Part shown: positions 40,719-64,000 of the stretch, piece by piece
Position numbering within the stretch: position 1 is the first letter of the stretch
Layout: every line of letters begins with the position of its first letter
Translations under genes and position numbers: made by a program
From: Pseudoxanthomonas sp. PXM03
GTDB taxonomy: Bacteria; Pseudomonadota; Gammaproteobacteria; Xanthomonadales; Xanthomonadaceae
DNA length: 64,000 bases
Assembly (NCBI RefSeq): GCF_014852005.1
Contig: NZ_JACVAU010000005.1
Span: 62,001 to 126,000, forward strand
Direction: 5' to 3'
The notes under the pieces: generated by a model
Databases searched by the model: none
What the model was told of the DNA's origin: nothing
Seen by the model: the letters and a program-made list of their open reading frames with translations, nothing else

Positions 40719-40979
40719 ATGACGACACCCCCGCCCAGCGTGAAGGGACGTGGTTCCACCCGATACCTGCCCGGTCGCTTCGCGGTGACCACGCCGGAAG
40801 CCGTCGACGACGGTTGGCGTGATGCCGATGGCGAAGGCGACATCACGTCCGCGCCGAAGACCGAACTGCGTGAGGAGGTCGCGCGCAGTGTCCTGACCCA
40901 CAACCAGTCGCCGGACATCCCTTTCGACCAGTCGCTGAATCCCTACCGGGGGTGTGAGCACGGTATGGTTCTCTACTGA
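40719..40979 (+). pseudogene. Radical SAM gene (PA0069 family), 5' fragment cut by the integrative element
   Basis: Begins [20 protein letters not shown] and reads as a normal PA0069/SplB-related radical SAM protein for 84 codons to NPYRGCEHG, then runs into four foreign codons and a stop (MVLY*). The break falls inside the CxxxCxxC iron-sulfur motif, after its first Cys, so the fragment cannot bind a cluster. GC-rich codon use agrees with the core chromosome. A complete homologue lies at 46826-47926; both share TGTGAGCACGG at the break point. Confidence 0.88.
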
Positions 40980-40988
40980 AGTGTCCAG

Positions 40989-41014
40989 TCAATACTGTAT
41001 TGAATAATCAATAC
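40989..41014. repeat. TCAATAC/GTATTGA repeat cluster at the element's left end
   Basis: TCAATAC (40989-40995), a one-base spacer and GTATTGA (40997-41003) form a perfect inverted repeat; a third copy TCAATAC follows at 41008-41014. Spaced about 20 bases from the junction, these are plausible recombinase core or arm sites. Confidence 0.55.
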
Positions 41015-41037
41015 GTCATGGCCTAATTGATACATTC

Positions 41038-41066
41038 TTGACATAAAGCAACTGAACAAAATAGCT
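41038..41066 (+). promoter_or_regulatory. Possible promoter of the recombinase operon
   Basis: A consensus TTGACA (41038-41043) is followed after 17 bases by ATAGCT, a poor -10. It lies about 115 bases before the first recombinase start. Confidence 0.35.
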
Positions 41067-41182
41067 TTCGGCCCTGCTTCTCGTTCGAACGTGTTCACTT
41101 CGCAGCTTTGGACCATCGCTGCGAATTGCACCCGACAACGAGCTGTGATTTTTTCCATCACGGTCGCAATCAGGGACATCAC

Positions 41183-42418
41183 TTGGACATCTACCAACCG
41201 AAGGTCATCAAGGCCATTCCAATCAACGGAAAAGGCCAAGCAGCCCAGCTGCTCGGAAAGTCCGCGAACCTACCCGTGGGCTTTCACTTCATAGTCGACC
41301 GACGAACTCTTGAGCCCATACAAGACGCATTTGACTTCCTACTTGCCGAAAGCGTCAGCCCCATTGGGAAGCCACAGCTCCGCAATCAAGAGAACACCAG
41401 CAAGGCCAATGCTGAAGATCTAGTGGATCTGCTGCTCTACGCCAACAGCATTCGCGTTCCTCTTACGGACTTCACAGAGGAATTGATCCAGGGCTACGCC
41501 GACAGCATGTCGGAAACCATCAGTCCTCAGACTCAGAAGGTCTACTCCGATGCGACCATTCTCAAGCGCGTGTCAACCGCGAAGAGGTCCTTGGAGTACC
41601 TCCAGAACCAAGGAAGATTGAAGAACCGCATCGATGTGCGGCGCGCCGTGGTGAAGGGCGAACCCAAGCTTGTTTTCGCTCCCCGCGTGAAGCTGCCCAA
41701 GCCGCCCGCCGTCGACGCCTTGGTGAAGCACATTCCCCCGGCCCTATTTGAAGAACTGGCAGCGACGCTGGGCCGCATGCCGAGCGAGGAGCGTAATGGA
41801 CTGAGTAGGGACAGACTGTTCTTCACCTATCTCGCCAACACGGGTTGTCGAATCAGCGAAGGCTTGGCCGGCAGATGCAGTGACCTTCCCCTGTGGCAGA
41901 TTGGAAAGAAGGATCCTCTCACGGCTTGCTTCATCAAGGTCAAAGCAAAGGGCGGCCATCAGCGCAACGTACGGCTGCCGATCTGGCTGCTCGAAGAGCT
42001 AGATCTCTACATCAAGAACGAGCGAGCGGAAGCCGTCGCCAAGCATTCGCCGGATCAAGCTCACGACAGAATATTCGTGAATCACCAGCATGCCCATCGC
42101 GGTGCGGGTTCTCCTCTGTCTGCCGCAAACTTCAGAAAGATCTTTCGACGCGCAGCCCAAAAGGCGGCAGAGCGGGTAGGCAGCCAATCTGTTCCGAGTC
42201 CGCACAGCTGCAGGCATTCGTTTGCCTTGTTCAACTACGCGGCGGAAAAGCTCAACGGCAATCCGGATCCAGGCAAGACCGTCCAGGCATTGCTTGGTCA
42301 CCGAGACAAGGCAACCACAGACAAGATCTACCTGAACGCAAGCGTTGTGCTCGAAGAGGTGCTCTCCGAGGCAGACCAAAGCCACCTCACGAAACTCCTT
42401 AGCGAGCGTGGACTGTGA
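41183..42418 (+). CDS. Tyrosine recombinase 1 of trio (GinA-like)
   Basis: 411 residues from a TTG with an AGGGA ribosome site 6 bases upstream; a longer frame begins further up but has no such site. The complete catalytic set is present: Arg223 in NTGCRISEGL, HxxR as His341-Ser-Cys-Arg344 in SPHSCRHSFA, His373 in LLGHRDKATT, and the nucleophile Tyr383 in DKIYLN. An N-terminal core-binding (SAM-like) domain with FTEELIQGYADSMSE precedes it. It overlaps recombinase 2 by 4 bases. It is expected to integrate and excise the element with its two partners. Confidence 0.88.
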   Translation: MDIYQPKVIKAIPINGKGQAAQLLGKSANLPVGFHFIVDRRTLEPIQDAFDFLLAESVSPIGKPQLRNQENTSKANAEDLVDLLLYANSIRVPLTDFTEELIQGYADSMSETISPQTQKVYSDATILKRVSTAKRSLEYLQNQGRLKNRIDVRRAVVKGEPKLVFAPRVKLPKPPAVDALVKHIPPALFEELAATLGRMPSEERNGLSRDRLFFTYLANTGCRISEGLAGRCSDLPLWQIGKKDPLTACFIKVKAKGGHQRNVRLPIWLLEELDLYIKNERAEAVAKHSPDQAHDRIFVNHQHAHRGAGSPLSAANFRKIFRRAAQKAAERVGSQSVPSPHSCRHSFALFNYAAEKLNGNPDPGKTVQALLGHRDKATTDKIYLNASVVLEEVLSEADQSHLTKLLSERGL

Positions 42419-44229
42419 GGAAGAACAGGTTCGACAATACCTCGGGAGGCAATGAGGGTGGCCAAGGCGAATCCCCGGAAGAGGGGAAGCTCAAAGTCAC
42501 CTTCACCCGCCATCTGCGACGCGGAAAATTGTATCTAAAGTCTGAGAATCTTAACCCTGAAGACGACAGGTGGTATCTGCTTGATCTTTGGTCGAGCTTG
42601 CCAACGCTCGGTGAGCAGCTCATCGAGGCGACCGTTGCGGTCATGTCCAGCGAGAAACAGACGACCAGGACCGCAACTCATCGTGACCTGCGCTACGGCT
42701 TTATTGCCTTTCTCAACGAAGTTAAGCCCAATGCGGAACTCAAGGATCTCCGTGCAGAGCTGTTTCGCGATTTCGTGAAGTGGCTTGATGCGCCCGGTGC
42801 CGACGGAAAGCCAAAGCGCAGCTACTTCGACAAGCTGCACAAGCTGAGCTCACTCAAGAAGCTGATCGGGCGTCTCTCCCCAACGCTCTCCGCGCTTGGA
42901 GTAGATCACGAGATTCCGGTGAACTCATGGTCGGGGCAACACACACAACGGGGCAAGGGCAAAGAGACCATTCCTTTCAAGCAGTTCGTGGACCTACTCG
43001 CGGCGGCCATCACTGCCTACGAGGAGCAGGTCAAGGAGATCGATCGCCTACTCACAAAGGTAGACAAGAAGGTCGCCGCGCTTATCGAAACAGGGCAGGA
43101 GGACTTCGATACTGTCGAAGGGCTGTCCGCCGTGATAATCGAGCGCTATGACGGCATGCTCCCCGAGAGGGAGTGGTTGAAGAAGAAAGACAACAAGCTA
43201 TTCGAAGCGATTGAAGGGTTCGGCTATACCGGCTTCGCACGCATCATCAATCCTCAGGTGAATGACCTCATTCCGGCATTCATCATTCTGCAGTGCTTCA
43301 CGCACTGGAACGAGCAGCCGTTGTGCTGCCTGAGGATTACCGACATCGACAGGAATGCCGGAGTACTTCACAACAAGTACAAGCTCTCATCGCACAAAGT
43401 ACGTGCGAAGAAGATGGTCTTCCGATCCTTTGCAAAGGACGATGAGGTCTTCAATCCTTGCAATGTCGTTGACTTCATTGAGCGCTGGACAAAGCACATG
43501 CGGCGGTCTGCTCCGGAGCGCATCAAGCACGACCTCTTCCTCTATGCAAGTAAATTCAAGAACAGGAAGGTAGAGGCGGCCAGATCGTTGGCCCAACCAT
43601 TGGGAGCACTGTACACCCTGTCGCTTGATCGCAAGCTCAAGTTCTTCGAGGCACGTGGACTTGAGCCGGCGGGCGCCAATGCGCTGAGGCAAGCCGGTTC
43701 TGACTACCTGAGGGACCTCCTGAAGGACTCAGAGAAAGTGAGGATCTTGCTTAGCCACAGCAGCGTGACTACGACGGACGGGAACTACCGATCGAGTGAG
43801 GCGCAGCGGCATGACGAAGTGGCCTTGGCCGGTGCCATGGCGATGAAGGAACGCCATCAGGACAGCGCCGGCAAGATAGACCCTCGAAGCCACTATGAAG
43901 ATCGCTCTGCCGCTACCCCTGGTTACGACTGTCTGGATCCGTTTCAGAGTCCAGTTGTTGGAGAGATTCCTGGCCGCATGTGCACCGCCTATGGGTTCTG
44001 TCCGGCCTGCCCAATAAAAGTGATGCGGCTGGATGATGTCTCCTGGGGCCGGAGAATCCAGCTCCAGCAAAGGTATAAGCAGGCTGCACTGGCAATGGGC
44101 TCCGCGCGCTTCAACCAACGCTACGGTCCGGCAGCAGAGGCACTCAACACATCGTTGATGCGGCTTACCGACTCCGGCTTAGCCCGCATCGGCCGCCTCA
44201 ACCTAAACCCAATCCCCGAGCTGGAGTGA
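42415..44229 (+). CDS. Tyrosine recombinase 2 of trio (GinB-like), missing Arg I
   Basis: 604 residues, GTG start overlapping the previous stop. The C-terminal half shows recombinase motifs: Arg425 in NALRQAG (Arg II position), His448 in LSHSSVTTTD and Tyr458 in GNYRSSE. At the expected Arg I position (normally TGxR) the sequence is HWNEQPLCCLRITDID, so Asn replaces Arg. About 140 residues with four Cys (GRMCTAYGFCPACPIKVM) follow the Tyr. Tn554 TnpB and GinB are proteins of similar size. It may be a regulatory or structural subunit, or supply Tyr in trans. Confidence 0.82.
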   Translation: MRKNRFDNTSGGNEGGQGESPEEGKLKVTFTRHLRRGKLYLKSENLNPEDDRWYLLDLWSSLPTLGEQLIEATVAVMSSEKQTTRTATHRDLRYGFIAFLNEVKPNAELKDLRAELFRDFVKWLDAPGADGKPKRSYFDKLHKLSSLKKLIGRLSPTLSALGVDHEIPVNSWSGQHTQRGKGKETIPFKQFVDLLAAAITAYEEQVKEIDRLLTKVDKKVAALIETGQEDFDTVEGLSAVIIERYDGMLPEREWLKKKDNKLFEAIEGFGYTGFARIINPQVNDLIPAFIILQCFTHWNEQPLCCLRITDIDRNAGVLHNKYKLSSHKVRAKKMVFRSFAKDDEVFNPCNVVDFIERWTKHMRRSAPERIKHDLFLYASKFKNRKVEAARSLAQPLGALYTLSLDRKLKFFEARGLEPAGANALRQAGSDYLRDLLKDSEKVRILLSHSSVTTTDGNYRSSEAQRHDEVALAGAMAMKERHQDSAGKIDPRSHYEDRSAATPGYDCLDPFQSPVVGEIPGRMCTAYGFCPACPIKVMRLDDVSWGRRIQLQQRYKQAALAMGSARFNQRYGPAAEALNTSLMRLTDSGLARIGRLNLNPIPELE

Positions 44230-44232
44230 CCT

Positions 44233-46281
44233 ATGGCCAAGAAGGCTGAGAACAATGCTTCCCTGAAGTTCGCTGAAGTCGACTTCGACGCAGACACATG
44301 GGTGATCAAGAACGAAACGCCAGCCCAGGTGAAGCCATACGCGACCATTCAGTGGGCGAAGCCGCTGAGCAATGGAGAGTCACTCACGAACCCGCAGCAT
44401 CGGGCGCTCCTATTCTCCCTCAGGTGCTTTGTTTGGTCGCTGGTGTACGACCCTCAGGAGGCAACGGCAACATCGGCTGGAGGAATCGCCTCATTGTCGA
44501 TTGCAATACGTGATCTTGCTTGTTTCCTCACGGATCAGGGAATCGAAGACCTTGATGAGATCTACCCCGAGGACACGTGGGCGTTTGCGGAGGAGGTGCT
44601 GGAACTACACCAAGAGGGCACGCGAGACGGTCATCCAGGTCGCGCGCGCGCTCCAACTCATGCTGGCGTCATTCGATCGGTCAACATCCTGACCTTGATC
44701 TATCGACAGCGGCGGGCTATAGCGAAGTTGGGCGGCAAGTCGTTGAAGATGGCTCCCTATGATGGGGACAAGCCATTCAGTGTCGTCACTAAAGACCTTG
44801 GCCTCAAGCGAAGCTCCACTACCATCGCGCCGATTCCTGACCAGGTCGCCATTCCTATCCTTAATACTGCCATCAGAATGATCGACGAGTCTGCCGATGG
44901 TCTGATTACGGCTATGGAAGCACTGCTGGCGATCCGCGGCTTTGCCAAAGATTGGGAGCAAATCAGGCCGGCAGATCGCATGGCTTTGTATGCCGAGCTC
45001 AACGAGCTCGCAACAAAGCTGAGCGTACCGATGCCCAATGGTGTTGAAGCCGAGTTTCCTTTGAGTCAGCAAGTCACAAAGGTAGACGCTGACGGTCGTG
45101 AGTTCGTCCTGGATAGTCCGCTAGTGGTCCTTCGGTACCTGCTGACATCGTGCGTAGCGGCCTGTTCTATCGTCCTTCAGGCAGGAACAGGCCTGAGGAG
45201 CCATGAACTCTTGAGCCTGAAAGCACTACCCGTCAAGGACGATGGTTGGCCATCCTGCCTCTCAAGGAGAGTGAGCGGTGATGGGATGATCGAGCTCTTC
45301 TACGTGGAGGCCATCACCTCAAAGCGCGGCAAGCCACGTACGGCCGAATGGATTGTGGGCGCACGTCCCGTTGGATCCAGTTACCTGCCACCCACAGTAC
45401 GCGCAGTTCTCGCGGTAACGCGGCTCCTGGCAATGTTCCGAGAGCTCGGTGAGATCAGTGGCCTGTTTGTCGTACTGAAGACTAACGGCGGACTGCCTGC
45501 CGTGGGGACTTCAGTTAGCCCCATGACCAATGGATATCTCGCAAGGTTTCAACGCGCTTTCGTTCTCAACTGGGTGGATCTCAGTGAGCTGAGCTCACCG
45601 GACCACGAAGGCTACAAGCAGGGCAAGCTCAGGCCCCACCAGTGGCGTCCGACCTTTGCCACGTTTGTATTTCGAACCAATCCCACGATGCTCAAGGCCA
45701 TCAGTGAGCATTTCAAGCACGTGAGTGATGCGATTACCTCCAAGTACTACATCGGCAATGATCCGACATTTCTGGCCGCCTGTGACGATGCTCAGACCAT
45801 GGCGGCCGTCCAGGTTCTACGATCAATCACCTTCAAGGGCGCGCCTGTGGTAGGCGGCTTTTCTCGTTACGTCGATGAGATGAGGAAAGAGCTCAAGCTT
45901 CATCTGGTGGATGAGCAAGCTAAGTTCGACGAGCAGGGGGCCCTTCGTTATGTGAGCGAAGAGGAGATTGTGCTTTGGAACACGTCATATGGGAGGTGCT
46001 GGTCGTCCCAGCTGCCGACCAAGAGTCTATGCAACCAACGCGCAGGAGCCTCGGTATTGGGATCGACCAGCCCGAATCTGGCCATTGCCCATGTCGAACT
46101 TTGTACCGGCTGCAGTTGCCTTGAGATCAGTACCGAACACGCGGCGTACTGGATCGAGAGGCGCGATCAGAATGCGCTTCTCGTGGAGCAAGCGAAGCGT
46201 GCTAACGACCAGACGACGCTCGCAATCGTTCAAAAGAGACAAAGGCAGGCCGAAGCCATGGTCAAGCATTTGGCTTCTTAG
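44233..46281 (+). CDS. Tyrosine recombinase 3 of trio (GinC-like)
   Basis: 682 residues, ATG with GGAG 5 bases upstream, 3 bases after recombinase 2. Catalytic residues: Arg322 in AGTGLRSHELL, HxxR as His469-Gln-Trp-Arg472 in LRPHQWRPTF, His493/His496 in SEHFKHVSD, and Tyr505/Tyr506 in SKYYIGND. A C-terminal Cys-containing region (HVELCTGCSCLEI) and a long charged helix complete it. Its 3' end overlaps the convergent HTH gene by 20 bases. Confidence 0.85.
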   Translation: MAKKAENNASLKFAEVDFDADTWVIKNETPAQVKPYATIQWAKPLSNGESLTNPQHRALLFSLRCFVWSLVYDPQEATATSAGGIASLSIAIRDLACFLTDQGIEDLDEIYPEDTWAFAEEVLELHQEGTRDGHPGRARAPTHAGVIRSVNILTLIYRQRRAIAKLGGKSLKMAPYDGDKPFSVVTKDLGLKRSSTTIAPIPDQVAIPILNTAIRMIDESADGLITAMEALLAIRGFAKDWEQIRPADRMALYAELNELATKLSVPMPNGVEAEFPLSQQVTKVDADGREFVLDSPLVVLRYLLTSCVAACSIVLQAGTGLRSHELLSLKALPVKDDGWPSCLSRRVSGDGMIELFYVEAITSKRGKPRTAEWIVGARPVGSSYLPPTVRAVLAVTRLLAMFRELGEISGLFVVLKTNGGLPAVGTSVSPMTNGYLARFQRAFVLNWVDLSELSSPDHEGYKQGKLRPHQWRPTFATFVFRTNPTMLKAISEHFKHVSDAITSKYYIGNDPTFLAACDDAQTMAAVQVLRSITFKGAPVVGGFSRYVDEMRKELKLHLVDEQAKFDEQGALRYVSEEEIVLWNTSYGRCWSSQLPTKSLCNQRAGASVLGSTSPNLAIAHVELCTGCSCLEISTEHAAYWIERRDQNALLVEQAKRANDQTTLAIVQKRQRQAEAMVKHLAS

Positions 46282-46705
46282 GGGGCCGCGCACGAAAGTT
46301 GACTCCCATCCGCTTGACGGTCGGATCGTCACCCAAATCGACCAGCCGCGCCTTGGCGCGATCGAGCTCAGCCCGTAATGAAGCGCACACCGTGATCAGC
46401 TGGGCCTGTGTGTTCTTCAGCTCGGCGATCTCCCGCCTGAGCGCGCGCACGGTCTCGGCAGCCGGAGAGGCCTTCTTGGCCTTGAGGATCGCATTGCGGA
46501 CTTTGGGATAGGCACAGTCGACATGCCCGATTAGGGTTCGGCTGACACCGGCCTCCAAAGCGACGTTGGAGAAAGAGACCATGCCGTAGGGCTCGCCCTC
46601 AGCCTGCCGCTTCTCCAGCTTCGCGCGAACCTTTGGATGGGTGGGAGAGCCCTCGATGAGTCTCTGCAGGGCCTGAGAGAGCTTCTTTTCGGTCGGATCG
46701 CTCAA
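46262..46705 (-). CDS. Small HTH/coiled-coil protein of the element (GinD/TnpC-like)
   Basis: 147 residues from a TTG. The N-terminal half has a helix-turn-helix-like stretch (VSFSNVALEAGVSRTLIGHV), the C-terminal half a coiled coil (ETVRALRREIAELKNTQAQL … ASLRAELDRAKARL). This combination is that of Tn554 TnpC and of the fourth GInt protein, thought to be an accessory DNA-binding factor for excision. Odd: it is convergent to the recombinases and overlaps recombinase 3, rather than following in the same direction. Confidence 0.65.
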   Translation of the reverse strand: MSDPTEKKLSQALQRLIEGSPTHPKVRAKLEKRQAEGEPYGMVSFSNVALEAGVSRTLIGHVDCAYPKVRNAILKAKKASPAAETVRALRREIAELKNTQAQLITVCASLRAELDRAKARLVDLGDDPTVKRMGVNFRARPPKKPNA

Positions 46706-46789
46706 CGTAGTCTGAACCTAGCGGACCAAGGCGCATCATCCCACGCGCACCTAGCTGGGGCCCATTGAAGGGATCACCCAGCCATCTTC

Positions 46790-46809
46790 TGTTAGTATTA
46801 ATGCTAACA
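46790..46809. promoter_or_regulatory. Palindromic operator, LexA-like, upstream of the radical SAM gene
   Basis: TGTTAGTATTAATGCTAACA is a 20-bp inverted repeat with one imperfect pair, 16 bases before the GTG start. It contains TTAG-N6-TGCTA, one base from TTAG-N6-TACTA, the LexA box of Xylella/Xanthomonas, and a -10-like TATTAA. LexA control is an inference. Confidence 0.5.
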
Positions 46810-46825
46810 AAGGATGGAGCTCGCC

Positions 46826-47926
46826 GTGATCTGGGATAGTGAGGAGCCCAATGCCCTAAAGCCCACTGCAGCCCTAAAAGGAAGGGGTGCAGCGTCCTAT
46901 GTGACCGGACGGTTCGCATCGACCCCGGCGGTGGGCGTGGACGATGGCTGGGGTTCGGTCTACGAGGACCAGCCAGGGCGTCCGCAGACCACGGTGACCG
47001 AGGAGCGGGCTAGAACCATCATCAGCCGGAATGATTCGCCTGACATTGGTTTCACCCAGTCTGTGAACCCCTACAAGGGATGTGAGCACGGGTGCGTTTA
47101 CTGCTTCGCCCGCCCATCCCATGCGTACCTGGATCTCTCCCCAGGCTTGGACTTTGAGACCAAGATCTTCGCCAAGCCCAACGCGGCCGAACTCCTTCGA
47201 GCCGAGCTATCGAAGCGGTCCTATGAGTGCTCCCCGATTGCCTTGGGGATCAACACCGATGCCTATCAGCCGACCGAGCGGCGCTATGGCATTTCCAAGG
47301 CATGTCTGGAGCTGCTAGCGGAAACCAAGCATCCGGTCAGCGTGGTCACCAAGTCGGCGCTGGTTGAGCGCGACCTGGATATCTATCAAGAAATGGCAAA
47401 GGAAGATCTGGTGTCGGTGTACTTTTCGGTCACCACACTCGACAACCATCTCTCGGCCAAGATGGAGCCTCGGGCCGCAGCCCCTCATGCTCGGCTACGA
47501 GCCATGAAAGCGCTGAGCAACGCTGGCGTGCCTGTGGGGGTCCTCGTAGCCCCCGTTATCCCCATGATCAACGACCATGAACTGGAGCAGATCCTGCAGG
47601 CAGCTCGAGACCAGGGCGCTCGATCTGCTGGGTTCGTTCTTCTGCGGCTACCGCATGAACTGACCCAGATCTGGCGAGAGTGGCTTGAGCTGCACTATCC
47701 CGATCGGGCCAAACACGTCATGAGCTTGATACAGCAAATGCGTGGGGGAAAGGACTACGACAGTAGGTTTGGCGCGAGAATGCGAGGGGAGGGGCCCTTC
47801 GCTATGCTCATACAGGCGCGATTTGAAAGGGCCCATCGACGACTTGGCTATGGCCGAATGCCCGCGCTGGACTGCAGTCGCTTCATCCGGCCGGAAGTTG
47901 GTTCCCCGCAGGGCTCACTCTTCTAG
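46826..47926 (+). CDS. PA0069-family radical SAM protein, complete element-borne copy
   Basis: 366 residues from a GTG with GGAG 6 bases upstream (an ATG at 46814 is possible). The cluster motif GCEHGCVYCFARP (CxxxCxxC) is intact, followed by SplB-like blocks (FETKIFAKPNAAELLRAEL, TDAYQPTERRYGISKACLEL, PVSVVTKS, LAPVIPMIND-like). It is homologous to the fragment at 40719-40979 but not identical, and its codons (many CGA, AGA, CTA, ATA) are unlike the core chromosome along its whole length. It probably restores the function lost by integration. The family is related to spore photoproduct lyase; its reaction is not known. Confidence 0.88.
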   Translation: MIWDSEEPNALKPTAALKGRGAASYVTGRFASTPAVGVDDGWGSVYEDQPGRPQTTVTEERARTIISRNDSPDIGFTQSVNPYKGCEHGCVYCFARPSHAYLDLSPGLDFETKIFAKPNAAELLRAELSKRSYECSPIALGINTDAYQPTERRYGISKACLELLAETKHPVSVVTKSALVERDLDIYQEMAKEDLVSVYFSVTTLDNHLSAKMEPRAAAPHARLRAMKALSNAGVPVGVLVAPVIPMINDHELEQILQAARDQGARSAGFVLLRLPHELTQIWREWLELHYPDRAKHVMSLIQQMRGGKDYDSRFGARMRGEGPFAMLIQARFERAHRRLGYGRMPALDCSRFIRPEVGSPQGSLF

Positions 47927-48000: not shown

Positions 48001-51000
48001 GTGCCTACTGATAAAACTGGCCCCTCGAAACCTCGAGCCAATAGCGGAGGGGCTGCAGCTGCAGCCGGCATGGTCTTTCAACAGCACGTAGGTGCTCTGG
48101 TCTCAACCTGGATGCTCTCGGGCGCCCCTCTCGACCGAATCTACGAGCTAGGAAATGCCCGCCCAATCTGGCTGAGGTTCGAAACCGAGGCACCTGTTGA
48201 CGACATTCTGGTCGCAACTTCAGACGGTGGGTACCTGGCATATCAGGTTAAGACGACCCTTTCATCATCTCCCGAGCCAAGCACCCCCTACGCAAAGACG
48301 GTGGATCAGCTAGTTAGGCATTGGCTCGCATGCCGCGATGGCGATGGGAGCATGGAGTGGAATCGTCCTCTGGACCCCAGTAAGGACCGACTAGTCATTG
48401 CTGTTGGGACGAGGGCTTCTGAGAAAATACGCATCGATCTCCCGAATGCGCTTCGGTCGCTATCGACTGGAGGAGGTGGCCCGAAGAACAGTGGGCAGAG
48501 AGCAGCTCTCGACGACTTCCAAGTGTGCGTTAGGCGCTCTTGGAGCAATGCAAGAACCGAACAGCTTCCTGAGAATCTACTCGGTGAGCTCTCGGCACTC
48601 ATATCCGTCGTCACGGTCGACCCAAGCGAAAAGGAAGTCGTGAGCAATCTCGCGGCATTCACCAACCGCACAAACGCACTGTCCCTTTCAGCCATCCTCG
48701 AAGTCTACTGTGGCGAAGAAATGTCGAAGCGAGGAGGCTTCGACAATAGCCTATTGAGACGCGCGCTCATTACTCGCGGTGCTGCTCTCCCATCGCCCCC
48801 CGAGTTCCAATCAGATATCGCAAAGCTCCGGGCACACAGCTCAGCGGTGCGTAGTCAACTTGAGCGATATGAAAGGATCAAGTCAGGGGATGGAAAGCTA
48901 GTTGCCATTCGGCGGGAATGCCAGGCCAAGCTTGAAGCGGCAGCAGAGTCAGGCTCACTGCTCATCATCGGAGAGCCAGGCGCTGGAAAGAGCGGTGTGC
49001 TTAATGCATTAGCGCGGAGTCTAGCCAACAAAGGCGGGGACGTAATTGAGCTCGCAGTGGATCAGTTCTCCGTAGAGACGCTTGAAGGCATTGCGTTTGA
49101 GTTGGGCTTGAGTCACGCACTCTTGGACGTGATCGCAGCCTGGGATGGGTCAGAACCAGGATGGCTAGTAGTAGATGCACTAGACGCCACACGGGGCGGA
49201 AAAGGGGAGGGAGCGTTCAGAACTCTTATAGAACGTGTAGTAGCCCTGGACGGCCGATGGAGGGTTGTTGCTTCGATCCGTACTTTTGACTTAAGAATGG
49301 GTCGCACGTTTCGAGAGATCTTCAAGGGCGCCCCTCCCTCAGCTGATCTAAGTGATCCCGAGTTTCGCGGAGTTAGGCATCTACGAGTGCCGCCTTGGTC
49401 TGAGAATGAGTTGGAAGAATTGCTTGAGCAAGCACCGCCCATCAAGGCGCTCCTAGCTCATGCCTCTACTCGCCTTCGAGAGCTGGCAGTTGTGCCATTC
49501 AATACGCGACTTATTGGTGAGCTGCTCGAGGACGGGATAGTCAGCGCCGACCTGTCGGAAGTTCAGACGCAAGCGCAACTTCTAGGTGTGTACTGGGATC
49601 ACCGCATATCACGTCACGGCTATGAAGCCGAAGCCTGCCTGAAACGCGTTGTTGGGCAGATGATGGAGTCCCGGGCGTTGCGCGCTTCCAGACTAGATCT
49701 CATTGACGTCTATCCTCAGGCGCTGGAGTTGTTGGTCCAAGAAGGTGTTCTGATCGAGACCGAGTCCGAACGCTGGATACAATTCAGGCACCACCTGTTG
49801 TTCGACTATGTGACTAGTCGTGTGTTTCTGAGACCGCTCTTGTCCAGTCACGACAATGCCGCCAAGGGACTGCAGGGGCTCGGTCTGATGCTCGCTCCGG
49901 CAGTGTCTTTCTGTCTACAGGAGCTGTGGTCGACGGAGGCCAATCGGCAGGAATTCTGGAACGTCGTGACACGCCTGGTAGCCGACGAGGAAACAGACCC
50001 CGTTATCAGAAGTGTGGCTAGTTGGATGCCAACAGAGCTGGCAGCCTCGAAACAAGACGTGGCAACAATCGGAAAGATGCTTGCCTCGGGCGAAGCCAAT
50101 TCCGAGAAGGCGGTTCAGCACTTCGTCGGGGCGTTAGCCGTTCGCCTTGATGATAAAGAGATCACATCGGTAGATCCCTGGATCTCCATATCTCTCGCCA
50201 TCTCTTCACGGCTACCGAACCTAGCGCGTGTGGCTCGACTCCTATGCTACCTCTTGATCAGCCGCACTGACTCACCTGAAGGACGTAGCGACTTAGGGGA
50301 AGTGTCACGAAAGCTGCTTGGCTTCTCCCTTTCTCTGGGTTCGGACGAGTACCTGATCGAATCTTCGATCGGCTTCGTAATAGACACCTATGACACCAAT
50401 CCAGAAGAGTCTCGAGATCTCATCCTGAAACTCTTCAGTCCGGCCAACTTCGGCGCGACGGGATGGAGCAGCGTGCCGGCAGTAGCGAGAAAGATCGAGA
50501 CTCTCGCAAAAAGCGACCCGGAGCTCGCCCGCTTCGTCTACGAGCAAACATACAAAAGAGACGTAGAGAAGGATCACGCTACAAACATTGGTAATAGCCA
50601 AATTCTTCCGCTTCGCTCGAGTGCAAAGCAAGACTATGAGCTTGCTCGATATGGCTTGGCTCAGTTCTTTCCCAAGTTCCTCCGAGCCCAACCTGATGTG
50701 GCGGCAAATGCCCTCTCTAGTGCGCTTGAGGGTTTCGTTGCGCGCGAGCACGCGACATCAACAGAGTTAGTACCTCATGAGATGGTCGTCAACGGCCAAC
50801 TGGTGCGACTTCAGGAGGATTACAGCCACATCTGGGCCCATGATCCAGAAGGAAAGCACGCTCAAGATGCGGACTCACTGGTAGCAAAGCTCCTGCCCTA
50901 TCTCCGAGAGGCATCGCAGGAAGATGCCATGTTGGTCATCAATGAGCTGTTGAGCGTCAGTAGCCTCGCTCTGCTATGGGCCAGAATGTTCATGATTGCC

Positions 51001-52845
51001 GCAGAGCGAAAGGACGCGGTTGCGCACCTACTCTGGCCATTCGCTACCGAAGAGGCCTTCATCCTCGCGAGTGAGACCAGGAAGGATGCTGTAGATCTGA
51101 TCTCGTCAATCTATCGGGAGCGGTCAACGACTGAGAGAATCGAGTTCGAGCACAGGGCTTTGAGCATTCGATTCTCCAAGTTCTCCGATTCAACGGCGGC
51201 ACGCGCCACCATCCTCGCGCGACTCTTCGGTGCTATCGGTAAAGAGAATCTCCTAACTCAAGAAGCTAGGGAAGCCTTGGGAGCGAAAGCCACAGGCCCC
51301 GAACAGGAGTCCAATGCGCGACTATTCTCAACAATGGCGACTTGGGCTAAGCCGTCGCCATACCATTGGCTAGAAGATCTAGAACAGGCCAGCCCAGCCA
51401 ATGCCGCCTTAATCACGGCCATTGAAGCATTCAAGGCAAATTTTGGGCTAGATCGCGGCAGTACCGCCACTGATGATCTCACTTTGAGTGAAGGTGTTCG
51501 TCAGATTCACGTCCTTCGAGAGCTGGTCGACTCATCAGCTGATGCTCACCAAGGTCTGAAGCAGCATGCAACGGGTGCTGTTGGCGAAGCGATAGCCAAA
51601 CTGGCAAAACGTGCGAGAAAGATCTCGGATGACGAGGCAGCCTCGCAAGCACTATTAGATCTCATCGTATGGATTGCCGGCTCACCGTATCCCGAGTCGG
51701 ACGAGGACACTGAGAAAGAGTTTGCGAAGTCTGCCGCATGGGGATCACCAGCTCCACGTGTCGATGCGGCAGTGGCCATCTTCGATCTGCTAGAAGGCCA
51801 TCCTGCCCTCTACCAACGGCTACGCGCGCACATCGAGACCTTGCTCGCTGATAGACATCCCGCAGTCCGTCTCCAGGCCATCGGGCGTCTTACAAACCTC
51901 TGGAACATCGATCGTGATGGGATGTGGATTCTGTTGCGTGACCGGGTAGACCGTGAGCGAAACCCAACGGTCATCCGTCAAGGTGTTTGCGATGTGCTTA
52001 CTCGCGTGCTGAATGCAGACGTTGCGCGCACGGAGGATCTCACCCTCCGCCTGCTTGCTCGCTACCAGAAAGAATCAAAGAGTGACGCAAAGGTCAGGGA
52101 ATCGTTGGCTACAGTACTCACCCACGCTTGGGTGGGTTATGGCCGATTCGAAGCTCAACAGGTCATTAGAGGTTGGATCCAGCGTCCCGAAGATCATCGA
52201 AAAGAGCTCCGCACTGCCATCACAGACCTTCGGCAGATCTACGTATACGGATTGGACGGGCAGGGAGAGGAGGACGCATTAGAGATTAGACACCGCGCGC
52301 AGGCCCTGCTCCATGAGATCGTTGGACACCTGCATTCCTTGGTGACTGAAGCGCTAGCATCACCTGAGCCTTCGGAGCTATACGAAACAGTCGGCAGATA
52401 CATTCGCCTCATCGATTGCGCCTGCATGCAGCTGTACTTTGCAGCGGAATCTCTTGGCGAAGATGGTGCAAGTTCTGTGTTTCTGGAAACTCTCTTGGAT
52501 GAGATCCAGGAGACTCTGAGTCTCATTGGAGAGGTAGGGACCCCACATACCATCTACTACCTATTGCAGCTGTTGGAGAAGTTCATCCCGTTCGACGCGG
52601 GAAGAGTGTTCGATCTCATAGCAGCCTCACTGCTCGCGGGCGGTCGTCGCTTCGGATACCAGTATGAGCCGATGGGAGCAGATCTTCTGGTTCGTCTGAT
52701 TGGTGTGTACTTAGCCGACTATAAGGAAATCTTCGAGGACGAACGTCGCAGGCTTGCACTCGTACAGTGTCTCGAGGTCTTCATGGAAGCTGGCTGGCCC
52801 TCCGCGCGCCGGCTGCTCTACCGCCTTCCTGAACTAGTCCAATGA
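48001..52845 (+). CDS. Nuclease-STAND ATPase, candidate antiviral sensor
   Basis: 1614 residues, GTG with AAGGAA upstream. Residues about 20-90 look like a PD-(D/E)xK nuclease (Asp67-Asp68 … Gln82-x-Lys84 in VDDILV … YLAYQVKTT), as in the Cap4/DUF4297-type effectors of Avs proteins. A STAND/NACHT-like ATPase follows: Walker A GEPGAGKS (324-331), Walker B WLVVDALDA (388-396), sensor RVVASIRTFDLR. The remaining 1100 residues are helical, HEAT/TPR-like, the usual sensor position. Start of a two-gene unit; overlaps the next gene by ATGA. Defence function is inferred from architecture and location. Confidence 0.72.
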   Translation: MPTDKTGPSKPRANSGGAAAAAGMVFQQHVGALVSTWMLSGAPLDRIYELGNARPIWLRFETEAPVDDILVATSDGGYLAYQVKTTLSSSPEPSTPYAKTVDQLVRHWLACRDGDGSMEWNRPLDPSKDRLVIAVGTRASEKIRIDLPNALRSLSTGGGGPKNSGQRAALDDFQVCVRRSWSNARTEQLPENLLGELSALISVVTVDPSEKEVVSNLAAFTNRTNALSLSAILEVYCGEEMSKRGGFDNSLLRRALITRGAALPSPPEFQSDIAKLRAHSSAVRSQLERYERIKSGDGKLVAIRRECQAKLEAAAESGSLLIIGEPGAGKSGVLNALARSLANKGGDVIELAVDQFSVETLEGIAFELGLSHALLDVIAAWDGSEPGWLVVDALDATRGGKGEGAFRTLIERVVALDGRWRVVASIRTFDLRMGRTFREIFKGAPPSADLSDPEFRGVRHLRVPPWSENELEELLEQAPPIKALLAHASTRLRELAVVPFNTRLIGELLEDGIVSADLSEVQTQAQLLGVYWDHRISRHGYEAEACLKRVVGQMMESRALRASRLDLIDVYPQALELLVQEGVLIETESERWIQFRHHLLFDYVTSRVFLRPLLSSHDNAAKGLQGLGLMLAPAVSFCLQELWSTEANRQEFWNVVTRLVADEETDPVIRSVASWMPTELAASKQDVATIGKMLASGEANSEKAVQHFVGALAVRLDDKEITSVDPWISISLAISSRLPNLARVARLLCYLLISRTDSPEGRSDLGEVSRKLLGFSLSLGSDEYLIESSIGFVIDTYDTNPEESRDLILKLFSPANFGATGWSSVPAVARKIETLAKSDPELARFVYEQTYKRDVEKDHATNIGNSQILPLRSSAKQDYELARYGLAQFFPKFLRAQPDVAANALSSALEGFVAREHATSTELVPHEMVVNGQLVRLQEDYSHIWAHDPEGKHAQDADSLVAKLLPYLREASQEDAMLVINELLSVSSLALLWARMFMIAAERKDAVAHLLWPFATEEAFILASETRKDAVDLISSIYRERSTTERIEFEHRALSIRFSKFSDSTAARATILARLFGAIGKENLLTQEAREALGAKATGPEQESNARLFSTMATWAKPSPYHWLEDLEQASPANAALITAIEAFKANFGLDRGSTATDDLTLSEGVRQIHVLRELVDSSADAHQGLKQHATGAVGEAIAKLAKRARKISDDEAASQALLDLIVWIAGSPYPESDEDTEKEFAKSAAWGSPAPRVDAAVAIFDLLEGHPALYQRLRAHIETLLADRHPAVRLQAIGRLTNLWNIDRDGMWILLRDRVDRERNPTVIRQGVCDVLTRVLNADVARTEDLTLRLLARYQKESKSDAKVRESLATVLTHAWVGYGRFEAQQVIRGWIQRPEDHRKELRTAITDLRQIYVYGLDGQGEEDALEIRHRAQALLHEIVGHLHSLVTEALASPEPSELYETVGRYIRLIDCACMQLYFAAESLGEDGASSVFLETLLDEIQETLSLIGEVGTPHTIYYLLQLLEKFIPFDAGRVFDLIAASLLAGGRRFGYQYEPMGADLLVRLIGVYLADYKEIFEDERRRLALVQCLEVFMEAGWPSARRLLYRLPELVQ

Positions 52846-54260
52846 ACGGCTCAAGAGAGAGGTCGGACTTTCGAAACGCTCTCGCGGCCCTTCTTGACAA
52901 CATGGAGGACGAGACGTCGGATCGTGGCACAAATTCCTACGACCGTGCGGCAGAGCCTGGCGTTCTTGAACATGTGACGCGAAGACTGTTCCTCGACGGC
53001 CTGTTGACAGAGCTTGGGTGGAGTCTGGGAGTCAGAGGAGATATGCCTGAAGAGGCGCGGGTACGCGCTGACACCACCCTCTACATCGACTACATGGGCG
53101 TGCATCCTGATGTCAGGACTCCGCTACTGATTGTGGAAGCAAAGGCTTGGGACGTGCCGCTTATTAATAGTCGAGGTCCAGGTCGCGTCGTCAGGCGCGA
53201 TGTCGATCTCGTGATACTCACTATTGAGCACTTCAAAGCCGGCAGCGCAAGAGAAGATTGCCCGGCAGCACTGGCTTGGTACGACTTTGTAGAACAGATT
53301 GCCGGATATGTCCGTGAGTTGAGAGATCGCCACGGGCACGACGTCCCGCGAGTCGTACTCACCAGCGGTCAGTGGATGGTGATATTCGTTTGCCCTACCA
53401 AGACGTTTCTTAGCCCCGCGGCGGTGGACGACGAACAGATCATTGTTCTGAGGAAGGAAGACTACCTCGCAGAATCGACGACGATACTGGATTTGCTTGC
53501 ACGGCGTGTGCTAGCCGGAGACAGTCAGTCCTTTGTAAGGCCAAGCCAGCTCCGTGGCTACATCGAGCCCGATACGTTGTCAGCAGCATTTCACGCGGTA
53601 CACGTGAAATACGAAGCGACCGGATCATCTAGGTTTGCGCCAAAGCCGCGAATACTCGTCTATCCGGTGGTAGTCCTCCAGCGAACAGACAACACACTGC
53701 TAATGGCAATTGAGGATACTGAGTTTCCACTCGACGAGCGCCAGGACTCGATCTTAGATCACTTGAGCGAAGTGAGTGACGCTGCAGAGCAGCTACTTCG
53801 TCGATGCGGGGAAATGCTCGGGCTCGAGCTCCAGGCCGCACCCCTAACTCAGTTTCCAGGTTTTCCAGTAAGACCTCGAAGGGTAGAAGCTGCGACGCCT
53901 GATCGCGTGCTAGTAAACGATCTTCCAGAGAGGAATGAGTGGGTAATGGTGACCGGCAGCTCAAGGCACTATCTACGTCCAGCGCCCGCCCAAGAGTGCA
54001 GATTTCATGCTTGGAGCGCATGCAACCAAGTAGCACAAGGGTGTGGCGCCAACTCGATCGCGTTCAGGGTTGCAACATCGCCCAGATCCTTCTTCACCGA
54101 CAACCAGCCACACCACTGCGCACATCAACATGTCATCGATGTGAGGGACGACCGTTGTCACATAGCCGCGATCGATAGCAGAACCTGCTGTCAGGCATGT
54201 CACTACAGCCCAATCTGCTGGAGTCAGTCCGAGATGGCGGCGCTCCCATGTGGAACTTGA
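52842..54260 (+). CDS. HsdR-N-like nuclease with Cys/His-rich tail
   Basis: 472 residues, ATG overlapping the STAND gene. The N-terminal 180 residues resemble the type I restriction HsdR nuclease domain: Asp83 in YIDYMG, then IVEAKAW with Glu99-x-Lys101, the PD-(D/E)xK motif. The last 90 residues contain some ten Cys and several His (CRFHAWSAC, HHCAHQH, CCQACHYSPIC … LPC), probably a metal-binding module. Tight coupling suggests it works with the STAND protein as partner or second effector. Confidence 0.65.
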   Translation: MNGSRERSDFRNALAALLDNMEDETSDRGTNSYDRAAEPGVLEHVTRRLFLDGLLTELGWSLGVRGDMPEEARVRADTTLYIDYMGVHPDVRTPLLIVEAKAWDVPLINSRGPGRVVRRDVDLVILTIEHFKAGSAREDCPAALAWYDFVEQIAGYVRELRDRHGHDVPRVVLTSGQWMVIFVCPTKTFLSPAAVDDEQIIVLRKEDYLAESTTILDLLARRVLAGDSQSFVRPSQLRGYIEPDTLSAAFHAVHVKYEATGSSRFAPKPRILVYPVVVLQRTDNTLLMAIEDTEFPLDERQDSILDHLSEVSDAAEQLLRRCGEMLGLELQAAPLTQFPGFPVRPRRVEAATPDRVLVNDLPERNEWVMVTGSSRHYLRPAPAQECRFHAWSACNQVAQGCGANSIAFRVATSPRSFFTDNQPHHCAHQHVIDVRDDRCHIAAIDSRTCCQACHYSPICWSQSEMAALPCGT

Positions 54261-55382: not shown

Positions 55383-55538
55383 TCAATCCTCATGCTCGGT
55401 GGCATTGAGGAAGGCCTTAAGCTCAGGATCCTGTGTCGCGTAGTCGGCGTGGAACTGCGCGAACGTGTTCGAGCGCGCGTAAAGGCACACCCACCGATCA
55501 AGCGCATGAGCCCGGTCAATCGCCTCATCCATATCCAT
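55383..55538 (-). CDS. 51-residue microprotein between SRAP and DUF4238 genes
   Basis: Starts at an ATG formed with the stop of the SRAP gene (TGATG) and reads MDMDEAIDRAHALDRWVCLY, ending NATEHED before TGA. It is acidic, probably helical, with no membrane segment. Its stop overlaps a TTG that could start the DUF4238 gene. The tight overlap on one or both sides makes it a likely real gene; function unknown. Confidence 0.5.
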   Translation of the reverse strand: MDMDEAIDRAHALDRWVCLYARSNTFAQFHADYATQDPELKAFLNATEHED

Positions 55539-56503
55539 CACGCTGCCTTCGCCACTTGGTGTTCGTAATAGGCCTGCGGTCGGTCATCGAGAATTGCCTG
55601 TAGCTCTTCAGCGGGTCGGCCCTCAGGAGTCAGCCAGGCCTCAATGTGCTCAGGCTTGATCTGGATGATGGTGCGATCATGACCGGCGGCGGCAACCTCG
55701 GGAGCGGGGTCATCGGTGATGGCAGCGAACGACAACAGCGCCTCATCTCCGTCAGGCGACTCGTTCCACAGGCATGCAATCACCATGTCCTGCTCGGGCT
55801 TCGGCCGAAACTCCAGCACCACGTTCTCCGACTTCTCGCCCTCTGCTAGCTCGCGCTGCTCCATGTTGTGGCGCTCGACGTTCTCGTAGAACGCGCTGAC
55901 CACGATGACTGCATGGCGATGCCCGAAGAGCGCTTGCCAGCTTGTCTCAATCTTGTCTCTGCGAGCGTTGTAGGTCGTGTCGTACTTACGCTCGACTTCG
56001 GCAGTCCAGCCAGGGAGTCTGCATCGATACCGCATCGGCTTGATCACCTTTCTCCCGTTCTCCATGACGATGACCGGCGCATAGTTGCCGGGATAGAAGC
56101 GCCTATCACGCGCAAGCGGCTCGACTCGCTGCAGGTCATCTAGATCTAACTTGAGCTTGCTGATCTTGTCGGTCGATATACGCAGGTCCTCCTGCGCCTT
56201 CTTGGTGACCTTGGTCAGCAGGGCGCGCTCGGCATCGGCCTGGCGCTTCTTCTGCTTGAACAGCTCCTGCTGCAGTTCGGTCTCGCGCTCGGCGCGCTGG
56301 CGCTGGATCACGTGCCAGATCTCCTGCGCCTTCGGGTCACCCAAGTTGCGGAACCAGTCCTCCATGGCCTTCGGCCGGCGCCTCTTCTTCGCCCGATCGG
56401 GTGCCGACCACACGTTCATGACGAAGTCCTCGAGGCTCATCGTCGCGCCGTAGTGGCGGACATACTTCTCGTAGTCGGCCTGGATCATCGCGGAGTAGCA
56501 CAT
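55538..56503 (-). CDS. SRAP-domain (YedK/HMCES-type) protein with coiled-coil insertion
   Basis: 321 residues starting MCYSAMI, so Cys2 would be the DNA-crosslinking nucleophile of the SRAP family, which shields abasic sites by a thiazolidine bond. The ATG at 56503 is chosen because Cys must directly follow Met and a GAGGA lies 8 bases upstream. The second half has the SRAP core (FYPGNYAPVIV, YNARRDKIETSWQALFG, VVSAFYEN, GHDRTIIQI). Odd: about 90 residues of charged coiled coil (VIQRQRAERETELQQELFKQ … KISKLKLDLDDLQR) interrupt the domain after residue 50. Confidence 0.75.
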   Translation of the reverse strand: MCYSAMIQADYEKYVRHYGATMSLEDFVMNVWSAPDRAKKRRRPKAMEDWFRNLGDPKAQEIWHVIQRQRAERETELQQELFKQKKRQADAERALLTKVTKKAQEDLRISTDKISKLKLDLDDLQRVEPLARDRRFYPGNYAPVIVMENGRKVIKPMRYRCRLPGWTAEVERKYDTTYNARRDKIETSWQALFGHRHAVIVVSAFYENVERHNMEQRELAEGEKSENVVLEFRPKPEQDMVIACLWNESPDGDEALLSFAAITDDPAPEVAAAGHDRTIIQIKPEHIEAWLTPEGRPAEELQAILDDRPQAYYEHQVAKAA

Positions 56504-56547
56504 AGGCACAGTCCTCGGCAGTCGGCCCGAATATACCGCCGACCCTG

Positions 56548-60707: not shown

Positions 60708-60742
60708 AGATTGTTGCCGAAACTAGCAACTTGGAGGCCGTT

Positions 60743-61648
60743 GTGCGAGATACCGAGGGACTTGATATCTACCTGCAGTTGGCCGCTCAGGACCGTGACC
60801 ACGACCGAGATGGACAGTTGCTTGCCCGTCTGTCTCAACTCGCCCGTGAAATGGAGCCGAATAGCGAATCCGATCAGTTCGGTAGCATTGATATCGACAA
60901 TTGCCTCCATGCCATCGCGCAGTCGCCCCTGCTGTTCCCTACCGCACTAGCGCGCTGGCTGACGACTGACTCTGATGTCCGACTGGGCAAGGCGCTCTTG
61001 CACCACGCCAACATTACCCATCTCGATCAGCACTTTCCCCAGCCCTACGACCTGACCCGAGTGCTGGAGGACGAAGCAATCACAACGGCCAGGCGCGCGT
61101 GCGCGTTAGCAGCCGCACCTTCGGTGTCGCTCGGATGGACATTGAGCATGGCGCGTGACTTTCCCGGCAGCGATGAGGTTCGCAACTGTACGACTGAGCT
61201 ACTCGACTACCACGTGGAACAGCTGCTGGTCAGTACCGTCGAGCTTCTGGGCTCTCCAGATTCGAGCTTCCTGGAGCTCGATGTCTCAACTGAGACACTT
61301 CGCAAGGCGCGCGAAGTGCAGCAGGTCCTTGATGAGCTACCGCGGCTCCGGGAACTCGAGATGACGGCGGATATGCGCCTCCTGTATTCCTCGCTCAAGC
61401 GAAGTGAGCACCGAGAAATTCATCGCCGTGCCGAGGAATCCTCAGCATTTCGCGGACTGCTGCATGAAGTGAGGCTCAAGTACACTAGTCGACCGGTCAT
61501 TGAAGTCCCGCACGACTCGGGCACGGAAGAGATGACTTTGGCCATGTCCTCGCACGAGCTTGCGATTGAGCCTCCGCTTTCTGAGCTTACGGATCCCGTC
61601 CTCGGGCTCATGCGTCGCAATCAACTCTGGCGGAGCACCAGTTCATGA
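60743..61648 (+). CDS. Unrecognised helical protein, first gene of a coupled pair
   Basis: 301 residues from a GTG with GGAGG 5 bases upstream (an in-frame TTG at 60731 has no site). Begins MRDTEGLDIYLQLAAQDRDH. Predominantly helical and acidic with repeated short Leu-rich helices; no membrane segment or catalytic motif seen. Overlaps the next gene by ATGA, so the products are made together. No known family recognised. Confidence 0.65.
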   Translation: MRDTEGLDIYLQLAAQDRDHDRDGQLLARLSQLAREMEPNSESDQFGSIDIDNCLHAIAQSPLLFPTALARWLTTDSDVRLGKALLHHANITHLDQHFPQPYDLTRVLEDEAITTARRACALAAAPSVSLGWTLSMARDFPGSDEVRNCTTELLDYHVEQLLVSTVELLGSPDSSFLELDVSTETLRKAREVQQVLDELPRLRELEMTADMRLLYSSLKRSEHREIHRRAEESSAFRGLLHEVRLKYTSRPVIEVPHDSGTEEMTLAMSSHELAIEPPLSELTDPVLGLMRRNQLWRSTSS

Positions 61649-63542: not shown

Positions 63543-64000
63543 ATGACCTTCAGAAAGGAAGCGGTACACGTAGGTTGGGCGGTGGGGCTGGCCTTGATGG
63601 CTCTGGGTGTAGTGATCGTGGACTCCATCATGGCTCCAGTGATCCGCGGAGTCCTGGGCGGCGCATTTTGGTGCTGCATGCTCGCCCTAGCAGTATCGAC
63701 GCTGGTGCTTACCCTGATGTACCTCAAGCACATCGGTACGACCAAGCGCATGCGTGTGCTCTTCAGCCTATCCGTCATCGTGATGAGCATCCTTACGCAC
63801 TCGCTCTTTGGCCTCGTGATTGAGACGTTCGCGCTCTTTGATCCCTCTAACAGTTCAAAGCTAGTGATGTTCATCTACTCGCTTCTAGCGCAACTCGTTG
63901 AGGCCTCGCAGCTCGTTGCCACCTTGGTAATGGCTGGACTGGCCGTCGGCCTGCTGATTAATACGTTTCCTGGTGTATCAGAGGGTCCGTCAGAGTCGGC
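63543..64000 (+). CDS. Partial four-helix membrane protein, runs off the window
   Basis: 152 codons are visible without a stop, from an ATG with an AAGGAG ribosome site 6 bases upstream. It has at least four hydrophobic helices (VGLALMALGVVIVDSIM, CCMLALAVSTLVLTLMYL, VLFSLSVIVMSILTHSLFGL, LVATLVMAGLAVGLLI). No family recognised. The 242 bases before it hold no gene that can be supported. Confidence 0.65.
   Translation, partial: MTFRKEAVHVGWAVGLALMALGVVIVDSIMAPVIRGVLGGAFWCCMLALAVSTLVLTLMYLKHIGTTKRMRVLFSLSVIVMSILTHSLFGLVIETFALFDPSNSSKLVMFIYSLLAQLVEASQLVATLVMAGLAVGLLINTFPGVSEGPSES

Follow-up and report, generated by a model that had tools for sequence, protein, structure and literature searches.

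An SE-like island within the Fe-S motif codons of a PA0069-family radical SAM gene, and the complete spare gene that it carries

The split gene, the island and its ends

The window analysed here is a stretch of 64,000 nucleotides of Pseudoxanthomonas sp. PXM03 (C7:62001-126000, in a genome of 4.03 Mb). At 40719..40963 (+), it contains the 5' remnant of a native PA0069-family radical SAM gene, which starts near 40719, reads ...NPYRGCEHG and is cut at GCEHG|C, inside the CxxxCxxC motif, as a preliminary description of the locus had stated. The last target base at the left junction is 40963, followed by TATGG... with an early stop. A complete homologue, placed correctly by the same description behind the recombinase genes, lies at 46814..47926 (+); it encodes 370 aa and matches NF033668 (rSAM_PA0069) with 506.7 bits at a curated cut-off of 360, and its start may perhaps be a GTG a few codons further on. 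A search of the whole genome located the gene in three places, namely this complete copy, the 5' fragment, and a native 3' remnant beyond the window at C7:129361-130201 (window-equivalent 67361-68201), 26.4 kb downstream and 61% identical to the complete copy. Such a remnant had been predicted past position 64000; it starts with CSYCFARP instead of the anticipated CVYCFARP, and is not preceded by the anticipated repeat, as the right junction reads ...GGTTCCATAAATTGCTG|CTGCAGCTACTGC. The 11 bases seen to be shared at the break, TGTGAGCACGG, are common to the 5' fragment and the complete copy and occur exactly twice in the genome. They are found in both genes because both encode C-E-H-G; since neither occurrence is at the right end, an att repeat was rejected, and the expected attR copy is absent.

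The inserted element (+) extends from 40964 through the end of the window at 64000 to window-equivalent 67360, which gives 26,397 bp in all from the coordinates, with ends uncertain by a few bases. In 1-kb bins, the G+C content of its part within the window is 0.53-0.63, and that of the left flank 0.63-0.70. At the left end of the element, the gene order is intA, tfp, intB, srap, as in SEs (strand-biased circularizing integrative elements), with an intA-like tyrosine recombinase of 436 aa (41108..42418, +, listed from TTG), a tfp-like protein of 604 aa (42415..44229, +), an intB-like large tyrosine recombinase of 682 aa (44233..46281, +) and a srap-like small protein of 147 aa (46262..46705, -), inverted as reported for SE-XcaCN17. 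Between the last of these and the complete radical SAM gene lies GTTAGTATTAATGCTAAC (46791..46808), which includes, on the minus strand, the pattern TTAGN6TACTA that is also present at the genome's own lexA promoter.

Ten proteins of the cargo were scanned with PADLOC, yielding the candidate defence proteins PDC-M54A (48001..52845, +) and PDC-M54B (52842..54260, +), an OloA-like protein (60731..61648, +), of which the profile match covers the second half only, and an OloB-like protein (61645..63300, +). The cargo also includes an SRAP domain protein (SOS response associated peptidase; 55538..56509, -), which is distinct from the Srap of the SE module and is encoded near the radical SAM copy with its LexA-like box. 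For comparison, nine large reading frames from 35 listed in seven other islands were scanned; five of them, in five islands (G052, G233, G305, G307, G414), gave PADLOC matches at E<=1e-10 (type I restriction in two, Avs2, PDC-S06 and SspC), and four had no PADLOC match.

The element ends were compared with the SE criterion of imperfect inverted repeats of 13-19 bp. The left end reads TATGG...TGTCCAG (40964..40989, +) and the right end, read inwards, TTTATGGAACC...TGTTCAC; they have TATGG and TGTYCA alone in common, and their overall agreement of 12 of 26 bases, reached by 544 of 2000 shuffles, is not above chance. G052, G305 and G316 have clear terminal repeats (17-18 of 26 bases, a score equalled in 0-2 of 2000 shuffles), G346 has 14 of 26 bases (29 of 2000 shuffles), and those of G013, G007, G414, G307, G076 and G249 are not significant against shuffles. 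TATGR is present at 6/14 left and 8/16 right ends, TGTTCA at 6/14 left and 12/16 right ends. Judged by eye with respect to the 6-bp footprint of SEs, the bases to the left of the element are those of the target, and the bases at the right junction differ from the left flank in the PA0069 gene, perhaps with the exception of G307.

The recombination module and its class

Pfam assigns the 436-aa protein to Phage_integrase and gives no match for the 604-aa and 682-aa proteins. In the latter, R322, H469, R472, H496 and Y506 are invariant in all seven aligned rows; in the 604-aa protein, an invariant Asn stands where the first catalytic Arg is expected, its place being set by what we take to be the catalytic motif. 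Against a database of 12 proteins, the matches to SE-6283 and SE-6945 had E-values of 5e-17 and 3e-14 for IntA, 9e-12 and 1e-7 for IntB, and 4e-9 and 0.097 for Srap. In the same database, Tfp was weakly similar to its SE-6945 counterpart (E 0.0014) and had no match in SE-6283; the hhalign probability for Tfp was 0.2. A profile of the 682-aa protein matched pSEA1 in two places only, identified from their neighbours (bcp and blaGMA-1, respectively) as intB of SE-6283 and of SE-6945. The fourth gene of SE-6283 was read as srap from its position and the profile match; the plasmid table labels it 'bacterioferritin comigratory protein'. With the gene order and three of four genes matching SE-6283, the element is SE-like. 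The srap gene is inverted in four of the nine loci where it was found, namely the window, G007, G013 and G414.

Four other classes were considered and rejected. GInts have flanking direct imperfect repeats of 10-17 nt, which are absent here, the left-flank sequence TGTGAGCACGG not being found at the right end. For GMT islands, GmtY reached 15.1 bits against a curated cut-off of 340. The archetypal RIT has three recombinases of 315-410 aa (sizes from PMC10214605), compared with 436, 604 and 682 aa in the window, and Tn554 has tnpA-tnpB-tnpC with no counterpart of Tfp, whereas here an extra recombinase-like gene stands between intA and intB.

One scan of viral contigs with the intB profile gave no match. 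In the class sample, 3/369 genomes matched, which are the genome itself and two weak partial matches, and 50 plasmid records have intB-like genes, every one below 60% identity. On one of these replicons, plasmid pUP202 (Methylomonas), a four-gene SE-like module (L192 8737-14479) is embedded in an F-type conjugation operon, where it is flanked by traU and traN.

Recurrence of the cut, and origin of the spare

Empty sites are frequent in the genus, in line with the expectation of the preliminary description: 31 of 38 genomes have a single uninterrupted match to the gene. Three (the genome itself, G000, and G007 and G013) have a 5' piece, a full copy and a 3' piece; G006, G024 and G027 have two matches that do not form this split, and G014 has none. 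In the four of these 31 whose flanks were compared (L012, L018, L020, L024), the neighbours of the locus lie on both sides of one intact gene, some of them falling outside individual fetched stretches.

In a sample of 299 genomes of the order, five besides the genome itself encode full-length relatives of the 682-aa protein with 25-33% identity, and three further matches are weak or partial. The PA0069 gene is split at the same codons in all five, and distant SEs in three families have this cut in common. A survey blind to the recombinase, in which every genome with more than one match was resolved individually, found the gene in 277 of 397 genomes of the order. With a strict split defined as a 5' piece ending at family positions 70-73 and a 3' piece starting at 68-71, the junction recurs in 12 of the 277 (G000, G013, G052, G076, G233, G249, G296, G305, G307, G316, G346, G414); in G233 and G296 the two pieces are on different contigs, and the 5' piece of G076 starts only at 35. 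A full spare accompanies 9 of the 12 strictly split genes and occurs in 4 of the 265 other genomes (Fisher p=6.5e-12, with rows that are not independent); G050, with a 5' piece, a spare and a C-terminal piece only, is counted among the 265, and G007 is outside this sample. Two full copies among the 265 are found in G209, G252, G269 and G338; in the last three, two full PA0069-family genes lie close together with no split, as tandem paralogues. The spare is not obligatory, as three strictly split genes (G307, with a complete SE module, G346, and G296, where the island is unassembled between contigs) have none.

The complete set of four SE genes can be recognised in G000, G007, G013, G052, G305, G307, G316 and G414; the module of G233 is cut by a contig end, and the islands of G050, G076, G229, G249, G318, G340 and G364 have no full module. 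The spare varies in position and orientation from element to element. It follows srap in G000, G007, G013 and G414, and lies towards the right end in opposite orientation in G052, G233 and G305 and in the same orientation in G316. In G050 and G076, which yielded no SE recombinase, and in G249, with part of intA only, it stands beside the 5' remnant. G316 (L092, L056) has two additional fragments, an N-terminal one behind srap and a C-terminal one past the right end, perhaps from successive insertions. In three genomes of genus g58 (G229, G318, G364; L110-L115), the left side has a full gene, and a 3' remnant follows after about 20 kb; the right ends are SE-like, no SE recombinases were found, and the DNA identity between the two 3' parts is 98% in G318 and 91-92% in G229 and G364. 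This arrangement could stem from hybrid reconstitution or from later recombination.

Of 398 genomes sampled across the phylum, 177 have the gene. One of them from outside the class, G1065, has a 5' remnant ending in GCEHG, followed after about 50 bp by a full spare; its 3' remnant starts with CIYC and lies 14 kb further (island at L212 979-17104). The SE profiles match nothing in the 40 kb fetched, and the region between the spare and the 3' remnant encodes two serine recombinases of large size, 591 and 707 aa, this being a single genome. Another genome, G1104, gave two matches, the better of which scores like a fragment. Its spare reads NPYNGCSHG and its native 5' piece NPYKGCEHG.

A tree of the 3' part was calculated with 78 rows, with the spares of G233 and G305 left out. 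The remnants of G000, G007 and G013 group with natives of the genus, and the complete copies of the same genomes cluster apart from these, in one clade with that of G414; the complete copy is thus a foreign spare, as the preliminary description had proposed, and the native gene is present in two pieces. Where a row of the host genus is present, the other remnants group with its natives, with the exception of that of G307, which forms a long branch apart from its own genus. A full-length tree without remnants (63 rows, comprising 42 of 66 natives, 11 spares and 10 of 30 from outside the class) reproduces the spare clades. There are about four of these, all away from the host's native gene except for that of G316, the spare of which originates in its own genus.

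The dN/dS ratio of the spares is 0.03-0.11 in six pairs with dS of 0.3-1.4, four of the pairs being among G000, G007, G013 and G414. The broken 3' remnants (three, compared with six natives and with one another) have similar ratios of 0.07-0.19; the insertions therefore look recent, and the ratio of the spares records past selection and is no proof of present activity. None of the 11 spares alters more than four of the 89 columns that are invariant in 66 natives. A PDB sequence search with the spare gave no match at E<=1.

The exact motif NPYRGCEHG is present in 64/66 natives and in 29 of the 30 natives that scored best among genomes outside the class, compared with 3/11 spares, the rows being related. 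The altered forms in the spares are NPYKG, NPFRG, GCQHG and NPYNGCSHG; one of the 66 natives reads NPYKG, and G1065 has this form in its native 5' piece. For this motif count there is no independent window of equal conservation to serve as control. Invariant nucleotide columns that have changed show no enrichment at the site (5/29 versus 37/270, p=0.39). The motif changes may hint at an escape from integration, which, with the column-level control negative, we offer as a hypothesis only.

The pattern TTAGN6TACTA, which we take to be the LexA box of this bacterial group, was searched on either strand within 250 bp upstream of the genes. It is present at 7/7 spares of the window's family (f1), at 0/4 spares from other families, at 0/32 intact natives with flanks (L012-L038, L201-L205) and at 0/14 5' remnants. 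In the genome itself it has three locations, directly upstream of lexA (which adjoins recA), once on C5, and at the spare; a reversed control pattern has eight occurrences, so the motif alone is not rare. The box upstream of the spare looks like a LexA operator, and control of the spare by LexA would be expected from this resemblance. The pattern is also present in G347 (L199) and G285 (L200), each of which has a single PA0069 gene, spare-like and in inverted orientation at the native locus, between the cls-like and right-flank genes. A native remnant is not recognisable in the gaps at these two loci, and the native gene has apparently been replaced in place.

Proposed explanation, alternatives and known systems

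We propose that the 26.4-kb SE-like island recognises, in PA0069-family genes, the DNA that codes for the CxxxCxxC (SAM/Fe-S) motif, which enzyme function would hold nearly constant, and that it inserts itself there by means of its own recombination module of four proteins. The insertion would destroy the host enzyme, and the island would supply a complete, separately placed foreign spare, in the window's family with its own upstream box resembling a LexA operator; the cell could thereby keep the activity, and the island would be tolerated. That the island targets the motif codons and brings a tolerated foreign replacement is, as a whole, very probable in our judgement. The split, the spare, its foreign origin, past purifying selection on it and the recurrence of the arrangement can be read from the sequences themselves, and from these we infer that the four proteins catalyse integration, that the spare is active, and that rescue is the selected benefit.

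The preliminary description had left two readings, of which it favoured a whole replacement at a dedicated site. The downstream remnant speaks for this one, as do the empty sites, the tree and the recurrence in other genomes; the outcome named as refuting it, with neither an empty-site genome nor a second junction, did not occur. The other, in which the second gene is a hybrid of an element-borne 5' part and the native 3' part, would account for the 11 shared bases at the break and has a parallel in the g58 genomes with their full gene on the left and 3' remnant about 20 kb on; it is scarcely credible for the window, where the native 3' part lies 26.4 kb away and groups with the genus, and where the second copy belongs to a foreign clade by its 3' part and over its full length. 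As the remnant groups with natives of the same genus and the complete copy is foreign, whole replacement holds and the hybrid fails.

Radical SAM genes might also travel in islands as ordinary cargo, their presence at a disrupted homologue being coincidental. Three strictly split loci have no spare and the islands contain much other cargo, as this would predict, but the idea is unlikely given the spare at 9 of 12 split versus 4 of 265 other loci, its several lineages, positions and orientations, its occurrence with unrelated recombinases in G1065, and the bcp precedent of SE-6283. We consider it less likely still that the spare serves as a homology arm or as a new target (for tandem insertion or transfer by homologous recombination) and not as an enzyme replacement. 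The spares directly beside the 5' remnant in G050, G076 and G249, the first two with no SE recombinase found and the third with part of intA, and the inverted spare-type genes at the native locus in G347 and G285, are in its favour; against it stand the purifying selection on the spare protein, tempered by the same ratio in the broken remnants, the upstream box of the spare, and the changed residues in its target motif.

Beyond the replacement of a destroyed target by a carried spare, a wider reading is possible, which we hold only tentatively: unrelated islands, tyrosine-recombinase SEs and a serine-recombinase element, may have converged on the Fe-S codons because function freezes this DNA, with a spare that would be self-immune through its altered motif, keeping activity yet escaping integration, that would have a promoter able to bring the enzyme under SOS regulation, and that could displace the native gene in place.

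If the replacement proposal is correct, the published bcp case of SE-6283 and its relatives would become a recurrent pattern, in which gene-destroying islands can pre-pay with a replacement, and the use of an enzyme's most conserved codons as a landing site would be explained. The locus would further provide a defence-island hotspot with defined ends, suggest a route by which a foreign gene replaces a native one in place, and link an uncharacterised radical SAM family to DNA-damage regulation.

Inteins of Rv2578c-family radical SAM proteins act by protein splicing. The intein-containing proteins of this family (NF038136, to which the complete copy of the window has a match below cut-off) likewise have a mobile sequence in a related radical SAM gene, but no spare.

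The remaining comparisons draw on portions of PMC5385486, PMC10214605 and PMC9345347. In searches of the open-access literature, the radical SAM site and its place in catalytic codons were not found, nor were the recurrence with several spare lineages, the serine-recombinase case or the LexA-like box. GInts (PMC5385486) resemble the element in having three recombinases and a small protein, and in that distant members use one site (ssb); for one pair, the site described is a ribonucleotide reductase gene that is duplicated. They differ in that the protein lacking the first Arg is the third and not the second, in their direct repeats of 10-17 nt, and, in the portion considered, in a target described as probably not fully inactivated, with no spare described. 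For SEs, the order intA-tfp-intB-srap is given in PMC10214605, where one element, SE-XcaCN17 of Xanthomonas campestris, is named as having srap inverted, as in the window, G007, G013 and G414; its insertion site may be the same as that of the window element. Close in organisation is SE-6283 (Tn6283) of Vibrio alfacsensis (PMC9345347), which has the same intA-tfp-intB-srap module, an internal site in a conserved gene, bcp, and a complete homologue of its target, which on pSEA1 lies directly behind the fourth core gene. The homologue is described, for SE-6283 and likewise for relatives, 'as if it complements', so that the idea of a carried replacement has a precedent in print. In contrast to SE-6283, the target of the window element is a PA0069-family radical SAM gene cut in its catalytic motif, srap is inverted, the recombinases are very distant, and the cargo includes defence genes. 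What appears to be new beyond SE-6283 is that distant SEs in three families share one cut, and that spares recur at the split loci.
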